Shown one piece after another: positions 8,954 to 30,182 of a stretch of DNA of 30,336 bases. The notes under the pieces were generated by a model that did not search any database, had not been told where the DNA came from, and saw only the letters and a list, made by a program, of their open reading frames with translations. The translations under genes were made by a program, and so were the position numbers. The stretch's first letter is position 1, and the number at the start of each line of letters is the position of its first letter. The stretch is taken from positions 1 through 30,336 of the IMG/VR virus record IMGVR_UViG_3300025127_000165. One strand, written 5' to 3'. The stretch is from a virus.

Positions 8954-9195
8954 GTTTACGCAGATGGTTTAAAGAAGAATGGGTAGACGTTAAAACAGGT
9001 AAGCCTTGTGGTCGGCAAAAAGGAGAGAAGCGTGGTGGCTACCCTGCTTGTAGACCTTCAAAGAGAATTAGTAGTAAGACTCCAAAGACTACAGGAGAAA
9101 TGAGTAGTAAAGAGAAGAGAAGATTCAAAGCAAGCAAGACCAGTTCAAAGAAGATAGCTTACCAACATAGACGCAATAGTTTAAAAATTAAGTAA
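8950..9195 (+). CDS. Small basic Cys-containing phage protein
   Basis: This 81-residue protein starts MSLRRWFKEEWVDVKTGKPC and continues GRQKGEKRGGYPACRPSKR, followed by a Lys/Ser-rich disordered tail. The W(V)DVKTGKPCGR...GYPACRP arrangement, with two Cys bracketing a Gly/Lys loop, is a pattern I recognise from small proteins of marine phages (sometimes listed as a domain of unknown function); no function is known to me. It overlaps the previous gene by four bases (ATGA). It ends before a 50-base spacer that holds a weak TATATT box (9202-9207). Confidence 0.72.
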   Translation: MSLRRWFKEEWVDVKTGKPCGRQKGEKRGGYPACRPSKRISSKTPKTTGEMSSKEKRRFKASKTSSKKIAYQHRRNSLKIK

Positions 9196-9245
9196 TAGTG
9201 TTATATTTGAAATAGCTTACATTTTTTATGTCTAAGGGTGTATCA

Positions 9246-9497
9246 ATGACTAAAGCAGATAAAGACCCCACTGGTGGTCTTACTGCTAGAGGTCGGAGAA
9301 AATACAACCGAGCAACAGGTGGAAACTTGCAAGCTCCTGTTACTAAAAAGACAGGTCTCTCTCCTAGACAAAAATCAAGAAGAAAATCTTTTTGTGCAAG
9401 AATGTCAAAGGTAAAAGGACCATTAAAAAAAGATGGCAAGCTAACTCGCAAAGCTCTTGCACTACGCAAGTGGAATTGTGGGTCTGTAAAAACTTAA
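9246..9497 (+). CDS. Small basic protein of the GGLTARGRRKYN family, upstream of capsid
   Basis: This protein has 83 residues from the ATG at 9246. That start is preferred over the ATG at 9228 because AAGGG (9234-9238) sits about eight bases upstream, while nothing suitable precedes 9228; the longer form would add six residues. Motifs are DPTGGLTARGRRKYNRATGG, RRKSFCARM and TRKALALRKWNCG. I recognise this as a conserved family in marine cyanophages (possibly DUF6321; this is recollection, not a search). It is rich in Arg, Lys and Gly with two Cys, which would suit DNA or capsid binding, but function is unknown. It directly precedes the capsid leader. Confidence 0.8.
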   Translation: MTKADKDPTGGLTARGRRKYNRATGGNLQAPVTKKTGLSPRQKSRRKSFCARMSKVKGPLKKDGKLTRKALALRKWNCGSVKT

Positions 9498-14809: not shown

Positions 14810-17239
14810 ATGGTTTTACAAGTAGGCACTACAAGTTTTCAAAGTACAGCAGGTCAAAGCTCTAGACAACCTGTAGATACTTTTGTTGAACCTGTAAGCG
14901 TATTACCTAAAACAGGCATAATGGAGTTAGCTGAAACGTTGCAATCTATTAATCCTACACTACAAAAATTTGTAAACTTTACGATACAAAAAGAAAAACA
15001 AAAAGGAATATTAGAAGGTCAAAATCAAATCTTAGGTTCTACTCCTACTGAAATAAATAAAATAAAAAAAGAATTAGAAAAGAAAGAAGGTAAAAGATTT
15101 GCTAGAAATTTTGTTGGTGGGAATATATACACACAATATGGAATAGAAAAACAATTAGCAATTAATTTAGGTAATGCAGCAGAAGCAAAAACCAAAAAGT
15201 TTTTTAGTGAATATCAAGTAAATATTAATTTACCTAATGGAGAAACAATACAACAACCTCTATCACAGTTTGATGTTGACTCACCACAATTTGACGCAGC
15301 AGTAAATGAATTTCAAGAAACAAATTTACTTGATGTAAAAGGAATTAGACCTGATATATTAAATCAACATTTTTTACCAAGACAAAATTTAGCTTTACAA
15401 AAAGCTATTGGCAAACATACAGAAGATAGAGCCGATCAAAAAATACAATTAGCTACTACAACTTTTTCAAATTCACTTTTAGGTAGTTGGAATAATATAG
15501 ATAACATCAACGATAGTATTGAACTCAATGTTATAGATGATAACTTTGTTGACGATGGTTCTGGTCTATCCCAAGCAGAAAGTATTGCTCTTAAAGAAAT
15601 TCAAGACAATGCAGATTATATGGTGAGTATTGGATTGAGTGAAGCTGTATCACCTTCAAGTTTTAAAAATTATATTACAAGTAGTGTTAATACAATTCTT
15701 CAATCATATAAAGATTCTGATATGAGTGAATTAGAAGCTATGGAAGAGATAGATGATTTTATAGATTTTATAGGCAAAGTAAAAGTAGGGCCAAAAGGTC
15801 TTACTAAAACAGGACAGACAGTACAGAAAGATTTAAAAAGTTTTCTTGATGCAGATAATACTATAGTAAAACTAAAAAAAGAAATCTTTGAAGAAATAAA
15901 TAGTTTAGCAAAGCAAGAGAATGATTTTTTAGAAGCAGCAAAACAAAATGATATTAATAACAGATTAGATCAATTAGATTTTGCTAGTGATGATGCAGAA
16001 GTTATACAAAATAATGCAAGAATAATATCTGCTTTAAAACAAGATTATAAAAATGAAATAGATTTTGTTGATACACAAGTTACTCTTAGAAACTTTAATG
16101 TAGATGGTTGGTTTTTAAACTTTCAAAAAAGATGGGTTAGTGGTGAGTTTGATGGCAATAAGTTAGCTGCAAGAACAGAGTTAAATAATTTTATGATTTC
16201 ACTAGGTTCTAGTGCGACAAAAGAAGATAAAGGAGAATATACAAGATTAGATAATCTTGTTAAAAGTCAATCAGGACAAGGCTTATTAACACAATATCCA
16301 GAGATAAAAGGAGTTATAAAGTTTGGAGAAAAGGTATTAAGTGAAAAAGACCCAAATGGATTTGATTTTATGAATGTAGGTAGAGTACAACAAAAATATG
16401 ATCTTGATTTTAAATTTGAAAAAGAAGTAGAAGCAGTTGTTGTAGATACAGAAATTTCAACACAACAAAAAAGAAAAATAATTGATGATCTTATCAGTTT
16501 TTATAAAGAACAAATTGGAAATATTAAAGATAATACTTATACTTTTTTTGATGAAGATAATAACATTAGTGCAGCAAAGCCAAATCAATTTAAAAAGAGC
16601 CAAGAATCAAACTCTGTAGATATACCAGATGCTTTTAATTTAAGCAGTTTAAACACACCAGATAATCAAAGAATAGTAAGTGATGTTGTTAATACATTAG
16701 GTGGTAGAGATGGCAGCTTAATTGCTATGGCTAATCCTACAGATACAGAAACAACTACGATAGTAGGTGCAGAAGAACCAAGCGGAGTAAAAAGATTTGA
16801 AGCCAACTTTCCCGTCTTCTACAAATTAGCTAAAGATGCAGGGCATAAATTTCCAGAAGTAACAGCAGCACAAGTAATGTTAGAAACATCAAATGGTGCA
16901 AGTCCTTCTGCTACAAACAATTATCTAGGTTTAAAAGCTACGCAAGATGAAGCTGATAAAGGTCAAGCAACTCTACAAAACACTCAAGAAAATATTGAAG
17001 GCAAAGATGTTGATATACAAGATAATTTTAAAAACTTTAATAGTTTACAAGATATGATGAATCAATATAAGACACAGTGGAATGATGACTTTATGGGAAG
17101 AAAGGGTACTGTTAATGTAGATACTGCTGAAGAAGCAGCTAAGTTGTTGCAAGCAAATGTCTTTGCAACTGACCCTGACTATGCCAAAAAGATTATGCAA
17201 ATAATCAGAGATGCAAAACGTAATCCACCACTATTTTAG
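14810..17239 (+). CDS. Internal virion protein gp15-like with C-terminal glucosaminidase domain
   Basis: This 809-residue protein takes the place of T7 gp15 (747 residues), an inner-core protein ejected into the cell to form the periplasmic tunnel. Most of it is helical and charged. Residues about 662-805 look like a glucosaminidase/FlgJ-type peptidoglycan hydrolase domain: FPVFYKLAKDAGHKFPEVTA, then AAQVMLETSNGASPS with Glu692 as probable catalytic residue, NNYLGLKAT, NFKNFNSLQDMMNQY and a closing FATDPDYAKKIMQIIRD. In T7 the wall-degrading domain is a transglycosylase at the N-terminus of gp16, so here the activity sits on another protein. It probably opens the host cell wall for DNA entry. 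It starts two bases after gp14. Confidence 0.9.
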   Translation: MVLQVGTTSFQSTAGQSSRQPVDTFVEPVSVLPKTGIMELAETLQSINPTLQKFVNFTIQKEKQKGILEGQNQILGSTPTEINKIKKELEKKEGKRFARNFVGGNIYTQYGIEKQLAINLGNAAEAKTKKFFSEYQVNINLPNGETIQQPLSQFDVDSPQFDAAVNEFQETNLLDVKGIRPDILNQHFLPRQNLALQKAIGKHTEDRADQKIQLATTTFSNSLLGSWNNIDNINDSIELNVIDDNFVDDGSGLSQAESIALKEIQDNADYMVSIGLSEAVSPSSFKNYITSSVNTILQSYKDSDMSELEAMEEIDDFIDFIGKVKVGPKGLTKTGQTVQKDLKSFLDADNTIVKLKKEIFEEINSLAKQENDFLEAAKQNDINNRLDQLDFASDDAEVIQNNARIISALKQDYKNEIDFVDTQVTLRNFNVDGWFLNFQKRWVSGEFDGNKLAARTELNNFMISLGSSATKEDKGEYTRLDNLVKSQSGQGLLTQYPEIKGVIKFGEKVLSEKDPNGFDFMNVGRVQQKYDLDFKFEKEVEAVVVDTEISTQQKRKIIDDLISFYKEQIGNIKDNTYTFFDEDNNISAAKPNQFKKSQESNSVDIPDAFNLSSLNTPDNQRIVSDVVNTLGGRDGSLIAMANPTDTETTTIVGAEEPSGVKRFEANFPVFYKLAKDAGHKFPEVTAAQVMLETSNGASPSATNNYLGLKATQDEADKGQATLQNTQENIEGKDVDIQDNFKNFNSLQDMMNQYKTQWNDDFMGRKGTVNVDTAEEAAKLLQANVFATDPDYAKKIMQIIRDAKRNPPLF

Positions 17240-27489: not shown

Positions 27490-27756
27490 ATGGGATTTGG
27501 CGTAGACATGGCGAAAGCCAGAGAAATTCACAAACTAAAAATAAGGACTGCAAGAAAACCAAAACTTGAAGAACTTGATGTTGAATTTCAAAGAGCAATA
27601 GAAACTAATGATGATACCAAGAAAGCAGAAATAGCAGTTAAAAAACAAGCATTAAGAGATGCACCTGCTGATTCTAGCATCAGTGATGCTAAAGATGCTT
27701 ATGCTTTAAAAGCACAATGGAAAACAGATATTCTTGGAACTTCACCTTATAGTTAG
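27490..27756 (+). CDS. Small tail-assembly-chaperone-like protein
   Basis: This 88-residue protein is read from the ATG at 27490, which follows the previous stop by five bases; an upstream TTG at 27466 lies inside the previous gene and is less likely. It is charged and helical: MGFGVDMAKAREIHKLKIRT, KPKLEELDVEFQRAIETNDD and ALRDAPADSSISDAKDA. The ALRDAPAD-type motif and the length resemble small chaperone-like proteins found beside fibre genes, which bind and protect fibre subunits. Its TAG shares a base with the GTG of the next gene. Confidence 0.72.
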   Translation: MGFGVDMAKAREIHKLKIRTARKPKLEELDVEFQRAIETNDDTKKAEIAVKKQALRDAPADSSISDAKDAYALKAQWKTDILGTSPYS

Positions 27757-28259
27757 TGGATTATCCAAAGATTAATCTGCCTGATACAAATAATATTCTT
27801 ATACCACCTAAAACAATTTTTTATCCACCTGTGGCAGAGATTCCATATCTAGATCCTCTACTCCTTCCAAGTCTGGAACAAGTTCAGTCGGGACTTGGGG
27901 AAGATCAGGGATCTTCTGGCGAAGAAGAAAAATCATCTTCAAAGGAGGAAGCGTTAGAAGTAACACCAGAGACAATACCGAAAGACCTGCTAGACCCCAA
28001 AGAAACCTTATCAAGTGAAGAAGCTATAGCTACCTTTACTATACCTTTCTATGGTGAAATGCCTATACCTGCACCAGAAGTTATAGCTTCTAGTGTGATA
28101 GCAGCAGGTACAGCTTCAGTTGCTAGTGTGGTTGGTGGTATAGCTATGCAATCGGTATTAGCTTTTATTAAGAAAACATTTAAGAAAATGTTTACTAAAG
28201 TTCTTAAAAAAGAGGTCACAAATGTGAAAGAAAAAATGGATAATAATAAAGGTAGCTAG
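27756..28259 (+). CDS. Acidic protein with C-terminal membrane segment
   Basis: This 167-residue protein starts with GTG, its first base shared with the previous stop. It has a Pro-rich start (YPKINLPDTNNILIPPKTIF), an acidic Glu/Ser-rich linker (about residues 50-80), the conserved-looking TIPFYGEMPIPAPEV, a Gly/Ala-rich hydrophobic segment (about 109-137: SSVIAAGTASVASVVGGIAM and following) and a very basic end (FIKKTFKKMFTKVLKKEV). This suggests a membrane-associated protein with a cytoplasmic basic tail. I recall similar proteins with IPFYGEMPIPAPEV in other marine cyanophages; function is unknown. It is the last + strand gene before the reversed cassette. Confidence 0.75.
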   Translation: MDYPKINLPDTNNILIPPKTIFYPPVAEIPYLDPLLLPSLEQVQSGLGEDQGSSGEEEKSSSKEEALEVTPETIPKDLLDPKETLSSEEAIATFTIPFYGEMPIPAPEVIASSVIAAGTASVASVVGGIAMQSVLAFIKKTFKKMFTKVLKKEVTNVKEKMDNNKGS

Positions 28260-28298
28260 AGTTCACATGCCTGTACGTGTGGCGTCTAAACTAGCTAC
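28252..28298. terminator. Inverted repeat between convergent genes, probable bidirectional terminator
   Basis: GTAGCTAG (28252-28259) and CTAGCTAC (28291-28298) are perfect inverted repeats. Inside lies a second stem, CACATG/CGTGTG (28264-28269/28276-28281, one G-T pair). An A-rich flank on the left and TTAAATTTTT on the right give a T-run for each direction. The left arm ends with the TAG of the + strand gene and the right arm contains the TAG of the - strand gene. Confidence 0.65.
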
Positions 28299-28831
28299 TT
28301 AAATTTTTCAGAGTTAGCTTTTACATAACTTCGTATATTGATTACATCATTGCAGATGTATGCGAACTTGGACTTAGGATTTATCATATAACCGCTTGCG
28401 TGAAGCTGCCCACACTTCAAGATACGAACTAGCTGCTTATCATGCACTTGCTTGTCTAGTTCTTCTTTGGCTAGGTCTAGCTTTACTTTTGCTAGTTCAG
28501 AACACGTTTCATTATTAGTTCCTAGCGGTATCATAAAACTCATTTGAAATCCCCAACCTTCATTAATACTATAGGTTTCACTATCAGGATTCTCAGCATC
28601 ATTACCTGTATAAAAAGGGGTAAATGCCATTGTTGGTTGACTACATATTAAATTTCCAAACTGCAACTTACCTGTCATTCCATTATTAACATTCATATTT
28701 TGATTGATAATACTTGAGTTACCAATTGCATTTGGTTGAGCTACGACATCAGTATCGCCTTCAGCTTTTACCTTATTACTGACTAAACACAGACAAGCTA
28801 GTAATAACGCTTGTAGTCGTAATTGTATCAT
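28295..28831 (-). CDS. Secreted four-cysteine protein (conserved in cyanophages)
   Basis: This 178-residue protein has a probable Sec signal peptide (MIQLRLQALLLACLCLVSNK, cleavage after VKA at about residue 23). The mature part has an Asn/Gln-rich stretch (IINQNMNVNNGMTGKLQFGN), TPFYTGNDAENPDSETYSIN, GWGFQMSFMIPLGTNNETC and a helical C-terminal part (LVRILKCGQLHASGYMINP, then YICNDVI). Four Cys remain in the mature part and could form two disulfides. I recognise this family, with its FxxGxMIPL-like and ILKCxxLxxxGYxxxP blocks, as one of the usual secreted unknowns of marine cyanophages. Its start overlaps the upstream gene by 56 bases. It may act in the periplasm or on the cell surface; function is unknown. 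Confidence 0.75.
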   Translation of the reverse strand: MIQLRLQALLLACLCLVSNKVKAEGDTDVVAQPNAIGNSSIINQNMNVNNGMTGKLQFGNLICSQPTMAFTPFYTGNDAENPDSETYSINEGWGFQMSFMIPLGTNNETCSELAKVKLDLAKEELDKQVHDKQLVRILKCGQLHASGYMINPKSKFAYICNDVINIRSYVKANSEKFK

Positions 28832-29141
28832 TCTGTGTGATTTGTTCTGTTAATGCACTAGCAGCCCTTGTAGTCGTACTTAAAGTCCATTCAGCAGTAC
28901 TATCTGTTGGAGTAAATACTGCATCTGTAGCTGTTATTCCACCACTTGTATCTGAAGTAACAGTAATGTTTGTAGCTTCCCAAGTGTTTAATGCTGATCC
29001 GTATTTCTCAGTAACAATACTGCGAGTTATTGTTTGTGTAGTATTTTCAGTTCTATTAGATGAACCTGTAGTCCAAGTTGGCACTGTGTTTGCGTAACAA
29101 GGTGCAGTTATAAACAACCCTAGTAATAAAAGTTTTTTCAT
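28776..29141 (-). CDS. Secreted Ser/Thr-rich protein (conserved in cyanophages)
   Basis: This 121-residue protein starts with a clear Sec signal peptide (MKKLLLLGLFITAPCYA, cleavage probably before NTVPTW). The mature protein is Ser/Thr/Asn-rich and probably beta-structured: TWTTGSSNRTENTTQTITRS, then WEATNITVTSDTSGGITATD, ending in TTSVITSLSVFSQ. The ANTxPTxTTGSxN start and SxSVFSQ end are features I recall from a family common in marine cyanophages and of unknown function. It overlaps the upstream membrane-protein gene by four bases and the downstream secreted-protein gene by 56 bases, so the three genes form one - strand operon. Confidence 0.75.
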   Translation of the reverse strand: MKKLLLLGLFITAPCYANTVPTWTTGSSNRTENTTQTITRSIVTEKYGSALNTWEATNITVTSDTSGGITATDAVFTPTDSTAEWTLSTTTRAASALTEQITQNDTITTTSVITSLSVFSQ

Positions 29142-29392
29142 TTGATACCTACCTTGTTTTTACTATTATCCACTATTTTAGGAGAATTGCCATTTTTCTT
29201 TTGTCCAACGGAAATTCCATAAGAACCTAACACACCACTAACTAAACCTGCGGTAAATGCTCCATCAATTCTTACCTTGCCCATGTATCCAAGAGTCATC
29301 ATTGATAAACTCCAAGTCAAGATTAAAAATCGAACAGCATGACCAAACAGGTCACCCCAATCAAAACCTTCCTTTTCTTCTTTTTCTTCCAT
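29138..29392 (-). CDS. Small two-helix membrane protein, holin candidate
   Basis: This 84-residue protein begins with a highly charged head (MEEKEEKEGFDWGDLFGH), then two hydrophobic segments (about 19-37, AVRFLILTWSLSMMTLGYM; and about 44-62, GAFTAGLVSGVLGSYGISV) separated by a charged turn (GKVRIDG), and a basic polar tail. Size, two segments and charged ends would suit a class II holin, and the position, between fibre genes and terminase, is where T7 keeps its holin gene 17.5. There is no sequence match to the T7 holin, and the gene lies on the opposite strand with two secreted-protein genes, so another membrane role is equally open. Confidence 0.7.
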   Translation of the reverse strand: MEEKEEKEGFDWGDLFGHAVRFLILTWSLSMMTLGYMGKVRIDGAFTAGLVSGVLGSYGISVGQKKNGNSPKIVDNSKNKVGIK

Positions 29393-29458
29393 GAAAAGTT
29401 AAGACTCTTGTTTAATACTAGCAATGTAGCTATGTTTGGAAAGTAACACAAGATTATT
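29393..29458. other. Divergent spacer between reversed cassette and terminase-side genes
   Basis: This 66-base gap separates the starts of the - strand membrane gene and the + strand 54-residue gene. It must contain, or lie near, at least the promoter of the - strand operon. I see only weak boxes: TAGTAT reading leftward, without a convincing -35. No strong ribosome binding site precedes either start, and no inverted repeat of note is present. Confidence 0.35.
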
Positions 29459-29623
29459 ATGCTGAAATTCTTAAAACCAATACTACTAAAGTTCTTTACT
29501 ACAACTGCTGTGAAGCGACTTATCGTGGATTTGCTTCGTGCAATCTGTAAGCAGACCTCGAATACTCTTGATGATCGTGCTGTTGATATGTTAGAGCAAC
29601 AGTTGTTTCCTAAAATGAATTGA
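29459..29623 (+). CDS. 54-residue conserved-looking small phage protein
   Basis: This short gene encodes MLKFLKPILLKFFTTTAVKR followed by LIVDLLRAICKQTSNTLDDR and a helical end (AVDMLEQQLFPKMN). The pattern of a basic amphipathic N-terminus, V(D)LLRAxxKxTxNxLDD and a final helix is one I recognise from tiny proteins near lysis and packaging genes in many phages; function is unknown. It overlaps no neighbour: the next gene starts one base after its stop. The hydrophobic N-terminal part might associate with a membrane but is too short and charged for a clear membrane span. Confidence 0.68.
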   Translation: MLKFLKPILLKFFTTTAVKRLIVDLLRAICKQTSNTLDDRAVDMLEQQLFPKMN

Positions 29624-29624
29624 T

Positions 29625-29933
29625 ATGACACATAAAGAATTTTTCAAAGTACTTATCGGCAATCCACCGCCAGAAATAGAGTTTGAAATTGAAATAAAGC
29701 AACGTGAAACAGAACAACTACCTGATGAAGCTATAAGGGCTTACTGTTTAGACCTAGTTAAATACACCAAGCTACAAGATTTGCTTTTAACTTCAGCAAT
29801 AATGCGTATATCAGAAATAGAAACCAAACTATATCGCTATGAGAAAGGTATGAGACTATACAAAAAAGTTAGAAAGCTAAGTTTTTTTGGTAAAATAAAG
29901 TATCTTCTATCTGGCAATACAAGTGAGAAGTGA
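29625..29933 (+). CDS. Unknown helical protein upstream of terminase
   Basis: This 102-residue protein is not recognised. It starts MTHKEFFKVLIGNPPPEIEF, has an acidic and then a charged helical body (DEAIRAYCLDLVKYTKLQDL, RISEIETKLYRYEKGMRLY) and a basic end (KVRKLSFFGKIKYLLSGNTS). There is no signal peptide; the last 25 residues are amphipathic and basic. It starts one base after the preceding stop. Position before the terminase genes gives no firm clue. It is followed by a 27-base spacer with a TATATT box (29935-29940). Confidence 0.7.
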   Translation: MTHKEFFKVLIGNPPPEIEFEIEIKQRETEQLPDEAIRAYCLDLVKYTKLQDLLLTSAIMRISEIETKLYRYEKGMRLYKKVRKLSFFGKIKYLLSGNTSEK

Positions 29934-29960: not shown

Positions 29961-30182
29961 ATGGATAAAAACTTAAAAATACTTAAGACCATACATTATG
30001 AGTTAGCAAAACATATACTTGATCTGATAAAAAGTGGTGAAGCAAAGGCAGGGGATTTAAACGTAGCTAGACAGTTTTTAAAAGATAATGGTATTGAGTG
30101 TATTCCTGTAGAAAACAACCCAATGGAAGAGCTTATGAACAACTTACCAGACCTAGATGCTGTACCTTTAGCTGATTTATAA
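29961..30182 (+). CDS. Small terminase subunit, T7 gp18-like
   Basis: This 73-residue protein sits directly upstream of the large terminase, where T7 has gp18 (89 residues), which recognises concatemeric DNA and regulates cutting. Its sequence fits short phage small terminases: an N-terminal helix (LKTIHYELAKHILDLIKSGE), a DLNVARQFLKDNGIE segment, the kind of helix seen in many phage small terminases, and a C-terminal tail NPMEELMNNLPDLDAVPL, likely used to bind the large subunit. The large terminase starts immediately after its TAA. Confidence 0.85.
   Translation: MDKNLKILKTIHYELAKHILDLIKSGEAKAGDLNVARQFLKDNGIECIPVENNPMEELMNNLPDLDAVPLADL

Follow-up and report, generated by a model that had tools for sequence, protein, structure and literature searches.

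The DNA analyzed here, called the window throughout, is the whole 30,336-bp IMG/VR virus record IMGVR_UViG_3300025127_000165. Judged by gene A, its closest annotated relative among the matches listed is Prochlorococcus phage P-SCSP2 (88% over 90% of A), which is assigned to the MPP-C clade in the available text of PMC9860041. The initial annotation had described three overlapping genes read leftward in an otherwise all-forward genome, and the list of open reading frames (ORFs) agreed with both statements. Genes A, B and C were found on the minus strand, and of the 35 non-nested ORFs of at least 60 aa in the window, only five are minus-strand, namely these three genes and two ORFs that were judged to be shadows (Table 1). 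On the basis of its sequence relatives, the forward gene X is a fourth family of the same module, one that was absent from the original three-gene set. Elsewhere in the window, the 809-aa internal virion protein (14810-17239) carries a C-terminal glucosaminidase domain (PF01832, E 1.4e-16).

Table 1. Features of the module and its surroundings in the window.
Feature	Position	Strand	Evidence or remark
Gene X, 167 aa, GTG start	27756..28259	+	phrog_9426 E 4.2e-8; convergent with A
Stem-loop between the 3' ends of X and A	28250..28300	.	MFE -19.5 kcal/mol; z -3.0 (+), z -2.4 (-)
Gene A, 178 aa	28295..28831	-	phrog_1755 5.3e-26 (residues 30-172), phrog_848 8.1e-25
Predicted signal peptide of A	28763-28831	-	N-terminal MIQLRLQALLLACLCLVSNKVKA, predicted cleavage before EG
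B/A overlap, 56 nt	28776..28831	-	...SLSVFSQ end of B is read as hydrophobic core of A's signal, +1 frame
Gene B, 121 aa	28776..29141	-	phrog_650 2.7e-13 (residues 7-121)
Predicted signal peptide of B	29091-29141	-	N-terminal MKKLLLLGLFITAPCYA, predicted cleavage before NT
Gene C, 84 aa, DUF6450	29138..29392	-	PF20048 E 5.8e-7; phrog_21865 2.2e-11
Divergent gap, 66 bp, putative site of leftward C-B-A promoter	29393..29458	-	position
54-aa gene, podovirus neighbor, outside module	29459..29623	+	phrog_2738 1.7e-18; synteny
Terminase small subunit, right-hand landmark	29961..30182	+	PF11123 8.9e-19
Minus-strand ORFs judged shadows	9188-9469, 29323-29631	-	ORF census

The protein features that had been claimed for the leftward genes were recovered. 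A and B both have signal-type N-termini, with 11-residue Kyte-Doolittle peaks of 2.82 and 2.31, respectively, and in an alignment of A relatives the cleavage-type motif of A is retained; cleavage of both signals is predicted from these sequences. The four cysteines noted earlier in one mature protein are those of A (precursor positions 63, 110, 140 and 160), and they are invariant in an alignment of 15 sequences. By PHROGs profile, A belongs to phrog_848/phrog_1755 and B to phrog_650. Mature B is rich in Ser and Thr and has a C-terminal SLSVFSQ that is conserved in the alignment, and the record of phage P-SSP7 labels its B homologue 'possible SignalP'. Neither Pfam nor NCBIfam has a family that matches window A or B; for DUF6322 (PF19847), which Syn9 gp166 matches at 2.5e-40, no match was obtained with window B, nor for any other Pfam family at E <= 1. 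The third protein, C, has the two membrane segments and charged ends that had been described, with two segments by hydropathy, an acidic N-terminus and a basic C-terminus (end charges -5/+5), and it passes the curated cut-off of DUF6450 (29.7 bits versus 25). The P-SSP7 record says of its C homologue '2 transmembrane regions predicted by TMHMM'. The C-terminal residues of window C (IVDNSKNKVGIK) and of C from siphovirus MED4-184 (IVDNKNSKVGIK; L008:3965-4204) are nearly identical, which suggests exchange between phages of different morphotypes.

Structure prediction, which the initial annotation had proposed for the mature proteins, was informative for B in that two long strands were modeled, and gave no trusted fold match for either A or B. 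The AlphaFold2 model of A, with a β-hairpin and then a 39-residue helix after a disordered start, is poor (pLDDT 68, pTM 0.40). In the fold search there was no credible match for A, as the matches were mostly to long helices and those of TolC/OprM type were weak; the sequences of solved structures likewise gave no match (best E 0.22). The model of B (pLDDT 87.6, pTM 0.46) consists of strands of 22 and 23 residues around a small β part. B had no match among the sequences of solved structures (best E 0.35) and no Foldseek match in the PDB at E <= 0.001, where the top match overall was a phage upper-tail protein (E 0.037) and the best pore match was lysenin (E 0.087). Three BFVD matches were obtained at E <= 0.001, all to unnamed or uncharacterized viral proteins. 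All 11 VIA matches listed for B are stems of β-pore proteins (Z 2.3-3.9, rmsd 3.7-10), and the stem hairpins of the anthrax PA pore, CDTb, iota Ib, lysenin and aerolysin align with the 22-23-residue strands of B. However, the Z scores are far below trust and no sequence similarity to these proteins was found, so the modeled likeness to pore-toxin stems is weak and amounts to a shared long hairpin, no more.

X consists of a proline-rich N-terminal part (16 Pro) and a C-terminal part with a membrane segment (hydrophobic peak at residues 120-138) and a basic tail (C-terminal charge +3). It is homologous to the cyanomyovirus family T4-GC234 (phrog_570) in that iterated profiles of the two recover each other's loci, with no direct pairwise match. 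The stem-loop between X and A recurs, with z < -2 in 30 of 33 foldable MPP-C X/A gaps after identical sequences were dropped; in this count, as in the codon and promoter-motif counts below, the labels MPP-C and MPP-A/B denote the orientation of X and not phylogeny. The stem-loop is likely to be a bidirectional terminator or a processing hairpin. Scanning for terminators revealed no hairpin with a T tail in the X/A interval, and the word terminator here therefore refers to the stem. In the 66-bp gap upstream of C, no sigma-70-like pair was found, the sigma-70 scan as a whole gave 16 sites versus 12.1 expected, and 12-mers common to the region upstream of C and other intergenic regions did not exceed those in shuffles, either in P-SCSP2 (5 versus 3-12) or in the window (1 versus 0-7).

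To follow the module across phages, gene neighborhoods were compared in 16 annotated phage stretches together with a profile tally over loci. Because the loci come from several scans that repeat some contigs, the tallies given here count loci and not independent viruses. Among 50,697 phage records searched with each protein, relatives were found in 412 for A, 39 for B and 50 for C, and the A protein of S-RIM2 as query matched 444 records compared to the 412 with window A; the relatives of A that were viewed are the best 60 of the 412. Judged from these sequence matches, the families recur more than expected by chance. The earlier statement that such secreted families recur in cyanophages is thus upheld for a four-family module of X, C, B and A, which was found in cyanopodoviruses, T4-like cyanomyoviruses and one siphovirus, that is, in all three tail morphotypes. 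The possibility raised at the outset, that the genes might not be conserved together, fails in the gene-neighborhood survey because C-B-A is conserved as a unit.

The arrangement differs between groups. In MPP-A/B podoviruses such as P-SSP7, X-C-B-A is co-oriented with the late genes, between the tail fibers and the small terminase, and the pattern TerS g54 A B C X accounts for 61 loci in the profile tally. In MPP-C, C-B-A occupies the same place in the opposite orientation, with A turned toward X (65 loci), and P-RSP2 also has C-B-A inverted, with A-B tail to tail with X. The block PSSP7_042-045 of P-SSP7 thus holds the same four families at the same locus as the window, P-SCSP2 and P-RSP2, but in the opposite orientation of C-B-A. 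In T4-like cyanomyoviruses the module lies between regA and hsp20. One strand carries C, T4-GC219 and X as well as a 'plasmid stability' gene, which follows C; A, B and B1, a cyanomyovirus paralogue of B, are on the other, and A and X meet tail to tail (27 loci for the fullest pattern). Siphovirus MED4-184 has a mixed arrangement. The T4-type late promoter word, NATAAATA, was present in the 100 nt that precede B1 at 28 of 77 myovirus loci compared to 57 of 1540 mononucleotide shuffles. With regard to the orientation of the leftward genes, the initial annotation had expected a separate promoter and perhaps different timing. The first part stands, since MPP-C needs its own leftward transcription, although no promoter motif was found. 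The second is unsupported, because the same genes run forward in the late block of many podoviruses, and reverse orientation by itself is no sign of different timing.

The cyanomyovirus form of this module corresponds to the 'cluster of five hypothetical proteins' of Sullivan et al. 2010, for which functional linkage and mobility were already proposed, and whose treatment there, in the available text, is limited to T4-like phages (PMC3037559). The window therefore holds a variant of a module already noted, and left unexplained, in myoviruses. Compared to the T4-GC 218/219/234/235/237 cluster (Syn9 gp161-gp167), C corresponds to 218, X to 234, A to 235 and B to 236, and the window has homologues of all four together, with A convergent with X. 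In contrast, the T4-GC cluster also contains B1 (237) and 219, neither of which is in the MPP-C patterns listed, and the window module has no 'plasmid stability' gene. Unlike in the T4-GC cluster, C of the window is upstream of B in one operon, and A is in the +1 frame of B, whereas it is in the -1 frame in the T4-GC cluster. What is new here is the very probable dual coding of the B/A overlap in MPP-C, the module-less phages Syn5, P60 and S-CBP2, and the cyanobacterial relatives of A and, weakly, of B.

The genes of the leftward block overlap at both junctions. C and B share 4 nt (ATGA), and 214 of 222 C-B pairs, a set that includes contigs present more than once, have this junction. The B/A overlap is much longer, and its coding constraint was analyzed in 90 distinct MPP-C B genes from which identical sequences had been dropped. 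In the last 18 codons of B, which overlap A, synonymous-codon identity was 2.01 times the expectation compared to 1.11-1.34 upstream, and this constraint indicates that both the B and the A frames of the MPP-C overlap are very probably translated. No such rise over the last 18 B codons was observed in MPP-A/B (1.30 versus 1.19) or in the myoviruses (1.28 versus 1.23). In a -1 overlap, the third base of B is the first base of A, where changes are tolerated by a hydrophobic segment, and the flat constraint is therefore no disproof of dual coding.

The start of A also differs between these groups. An ATG at the expected distance before the A cleavage site was present in 121 of 125 MPP-C loci, versus 14 of 73 MPP-A/B and 11 of 86 myovirus loci. 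In the latter two groups A is read in frame -1 relative to B (71 of 73 and 82 of 86 loci, respectively), and the hydrophobic core of the A signal is read from the nucleotides of the conserved SLSVFSQ end of B. Most MPP-A/B and myovirus A genes have no ATG, GTG or TTG near the signal peptide (loci L002, L003, L091-L095, L249), and some records, that of P-SSP7 for example, annotate A from an internal start with the signal dropped. Possible origins of A in MPP-A/B and the myoviruses are a non-AUG start, a distant ATG or a -1 frameshift. The production of A by a -1 frameshift is a guess, and no classical slippery heptamer was seen by eye at the B/A junctions.

To determine whether the module has relatives outside phages, cyanobacterial genomes were searched with the phage profiles. 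The phage A profile matched 4 of 201 cyanobacterial genomes. Two of these matches are weak and chromosomal (E 3.7e-10 and 1.1e-8, in the family of a Prochlorococcus single-cell genome), and the other two are on contigs that also carry C. PF20048 was found in two of the 201 genomes, both A-positive and on the same contigs as A, and the G068 stretch carries phage structural and terminase genes. A mixed profile, A6, matched 10 of 386 genomes of the phylum, and the four cysteines of A are largely kept in the chromosomal relatives. The host A homologue is next to further small Sec-type proteins in 10 of 11 loci, with signals assigned by eye and one locus (L354) cut off at a contig end. In L356, L367 and L368, A is directly followed by a small B-like protein, as judged by eye, and the B profile gave weak matches beside host A at L356 7717-8097 (E 1.3e-4), which encodes a second protein of this kind, and L343 5454-5924 (E 6e-4), among 522 ORFs. 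The C and X families were not found in the host A loci. A search of the 201 genomes with phrog_564 (B1) was set aside as uninformative, because its zero matches were equaled by zero for the controls.

Judged from these matches, a few cyanobacteria carry relatives of A and, weakly, of B on their chromosomes, where they are grouped with genes for other secreted proteins, and this company points to a surface structure. The cyanobacterial A loci (L343, L352, L353, L356, L367-L370) are similar to the phage module in combining A with secreted β-rich neighbors, but differ in their extra secreted proteins and in that C and X were not found. Several secreted proteins cluster around the A homologue in L343 (4275-8926), L352, L353, L369 and L370, and some proteins of the host clusters end in aromatic motifs (NSLTVFDQ, FSSAFSQNF, FATSF). 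Some of the clusters adjoin very large adhesin-like genes, and in L344 (5967-7959) a transposase gene splits the host A homologue.

In three relatives, Syn5, P60 and S-CBP2, A, B, C and X are all absent by profile, while TerS was found in each; the A profile, which gave matches in other searches, also gave none in S-PM2 (0 of 4 records in all). Where the module is missing, other genes take its place, and in two of the three relatives these are annotated as lysozymes. P60 has at the locus gp37, annotated as a lysozyme, with an endolysin annotation among the best 60 of its 1409 relatives, and gp38, a small protein that by eye is hydrophobic near its N-terminus and has a tail that is helical and charged. 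The S-CBP2 locus encodes a C39-like peptidase annotated as a lysozyme. Syn5 has a small protein that by eye resembles P60 gp38, and no annotated endolysin at the locus. In P-SCSP2, which has the module, endolysin, holin and spanin families were absent from the best 25 of 34 Pfam families (E up to 9.6e-7) in a scan that covered 40 of its 44 proteins. In myovirus DSL-LC03, A and B occur together with an annotated endolysin nearby, and the module is therefore not simply a replacement for an endolysin.

Given the secretion and membrane features, a role at the envelope, as originally supposed, is the natural reading of the leftward genes. The reading we tentatively favor, with a probability of about 0.4, is that X, C, B and A constitute a late-expressed, trans-envelope module with a part in the exit of virions from the cyanobacterial cell. 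C, with its two-segment and putatively holin-like topology, would sit in the inner membrane along with X, whose anchor would hold a proline-rich, probably periplasmic arm. B and A would be exported by Sec and would fold in the periplasm, A with disulfides, after which they might assemble at the outer envelope and, as infection ends, breach or weaken the peptidoglycan/outer-membrane barrier; the four proteins would form one assembly. That the module acts late is itself inferred.

Several observations argue for exit. The module lies between the tail fiber and the small terminase, which is where T7 has its holin gene 17.5, and lysozyme-annotated genes are found at the locus in P60 and S-CBP2, which are both without the module. 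The late promoter word precedes B1 in many myovirus loci, the recognized lysis families are missing from the top Pfam matches of P-SCSP2 as described above, the module extends across all three tail morphotypes, and the long strands of B weakly resemble pore-toxin stems. The T7 lysis genes 17.5, 18.5 and 18.7 likewise adjoin the small terminase and have a small two-segment membrane protein and overlapping small envelope genes. However, there is no family match between them and the module, and, unlike the T7 genes, A and B carry cleavable-type signals and A has no C-terminal anchor. No single gene was matched to a known lysis class: no lipobox of a two-component spanin (Rz/Rz1 type) was found, with none in B by eye; for A as a spanin lipoprotein, the hydrophobic-core Cys is missing in NATL1A-7, S-SBP1 and S-RIP1, and an AxA-type site is kept; and for C, considered as a class II holin (T7 gp17.5 type), every PHROGs or Pfam family that it matched is of unknown function.

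Against exit, A, B, C and X matched no enzyme, holin or spanin families in PHROGs and Pfam (A and B also in NCBIfam), and the module of S-SM1 and Syn9 lies away from recognized lysis genes. The endolysin beside A and B in DSL-LC03, the Syn5 locus without an annotated endolysin, the absence of A from S-PM2, the host-chromosome relatives of A among secreted proteins, and fold matches below any trust threshold with a poor model of A all weigh in the same direction.

The host relatives bear most on a second explanation, surface remodeling or superinfection exclusion, which we consider doubtful and less probable than exit. A and B, exported late, would coat or alter the surface of the infected cell such that further phages fail to adsorb or progeny avoid re-binding debris, with X and C guiding or anchoring export, and A and B would be phage versions of a cyanobacterial secreted-protein pair. 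This agrees with the chromosomal A homologues found by A6 beside Sec-type proteins, with the two weak B-like matches adjoining host A, with the B-like aromatic ends of several host neighbors (NSLTVFDQ and FSSAFSQNF), and with the description of the cassette as mobile in cyanomyoviruses in the available text of PMC3037559. However, the module occurs in nearly all cyanophages, which are mostly lytic, and this sets it apart from typical accessory genes; it is also swapped at its locus with lysozyme-annotated genes.

It is quite unlikely that A and B are virion or virion-maturation proteins, exported and then added to particles or processing the tail tip at the envelope. The podovirus module does come directly after the tail-fiber genes, and the top Foldseek match of B is the upper-tail protein, but both A and B carry Sec signals, and the myovirus location, between regA and hsp20, is not near tail genes. 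In addition, A, B and B1 are each entered as 'hypothetical protein' in the S-SM1 record, in spite of a virion proteome in which 41 proteins were reportedly detected.

Cyanophages carry many host-like genes, and the S-SM1 neighborhood includes hsp20, pstS and phoA. Even so, the least probable reading is an auxiliary one, an envelope stress or nutrient module whose periplasmic proteins would maintain or feed the infected cell until lysis, since no catalytic or binding domain was found, and MPP-C, reported in the available text of PMC9860041 to be without auxiliary metabolic genes, keeps the module.

A more far-reaching form of the exit reading is unlikely. Marine cyanophages of all three morphotypes would have domesticated a cyanobacterial A/B pair and combined it with inner-membrane X and C into their own machine for breaching the outer envelope, a lysis unlike that by holin, endolysin and spanin. 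In most clades A would be read in frame -1 relative to B, with no usual start codon close to the signal, possibly as a frameshifted B-A fusion that is exported as one unit.

As far as our literature searches reach, how marine cyanophages breach the envelope is apparently undescribed. No dedicated paper was found by title for cyanophage holin/spanin or cyanopodovirus endolysin/holin, DUF6450 was not found in the literature searched, and the available parts of PMC5082946, PMC8776855 and PMC10575957 hold no data on the module genes. Hundreds of cyanophage records contain the module (window A matches 412 of 50,697, the A protein of S-RIM2 444), and A and B, being small and secreted, could be tested in an engineered cyanophage, which would open a poorly defined problem to direct experiment. 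Through its relatives in host chromosomes, the module is tied to an uncharacterized cyanobacterial secretion or surface cluster.

Two further observations concern the annotation of related DNA. The cyanophage 'plasmid stability' protein (T4-GC414; L249:7071-7334, L008:6503-6739) has by eye a single N-terminal membrane segment and a proline-rich tail, and reads as an envelope protein rather than a plasmid-stability factor. Contigs with cyanophage-type A (L330, L331, L334 and L335) were binned in Neomarinimicrobiota, Crocinitomicaceae and Flavobacteriaceae MAGs, and these are probably mis-binned phage DNA.
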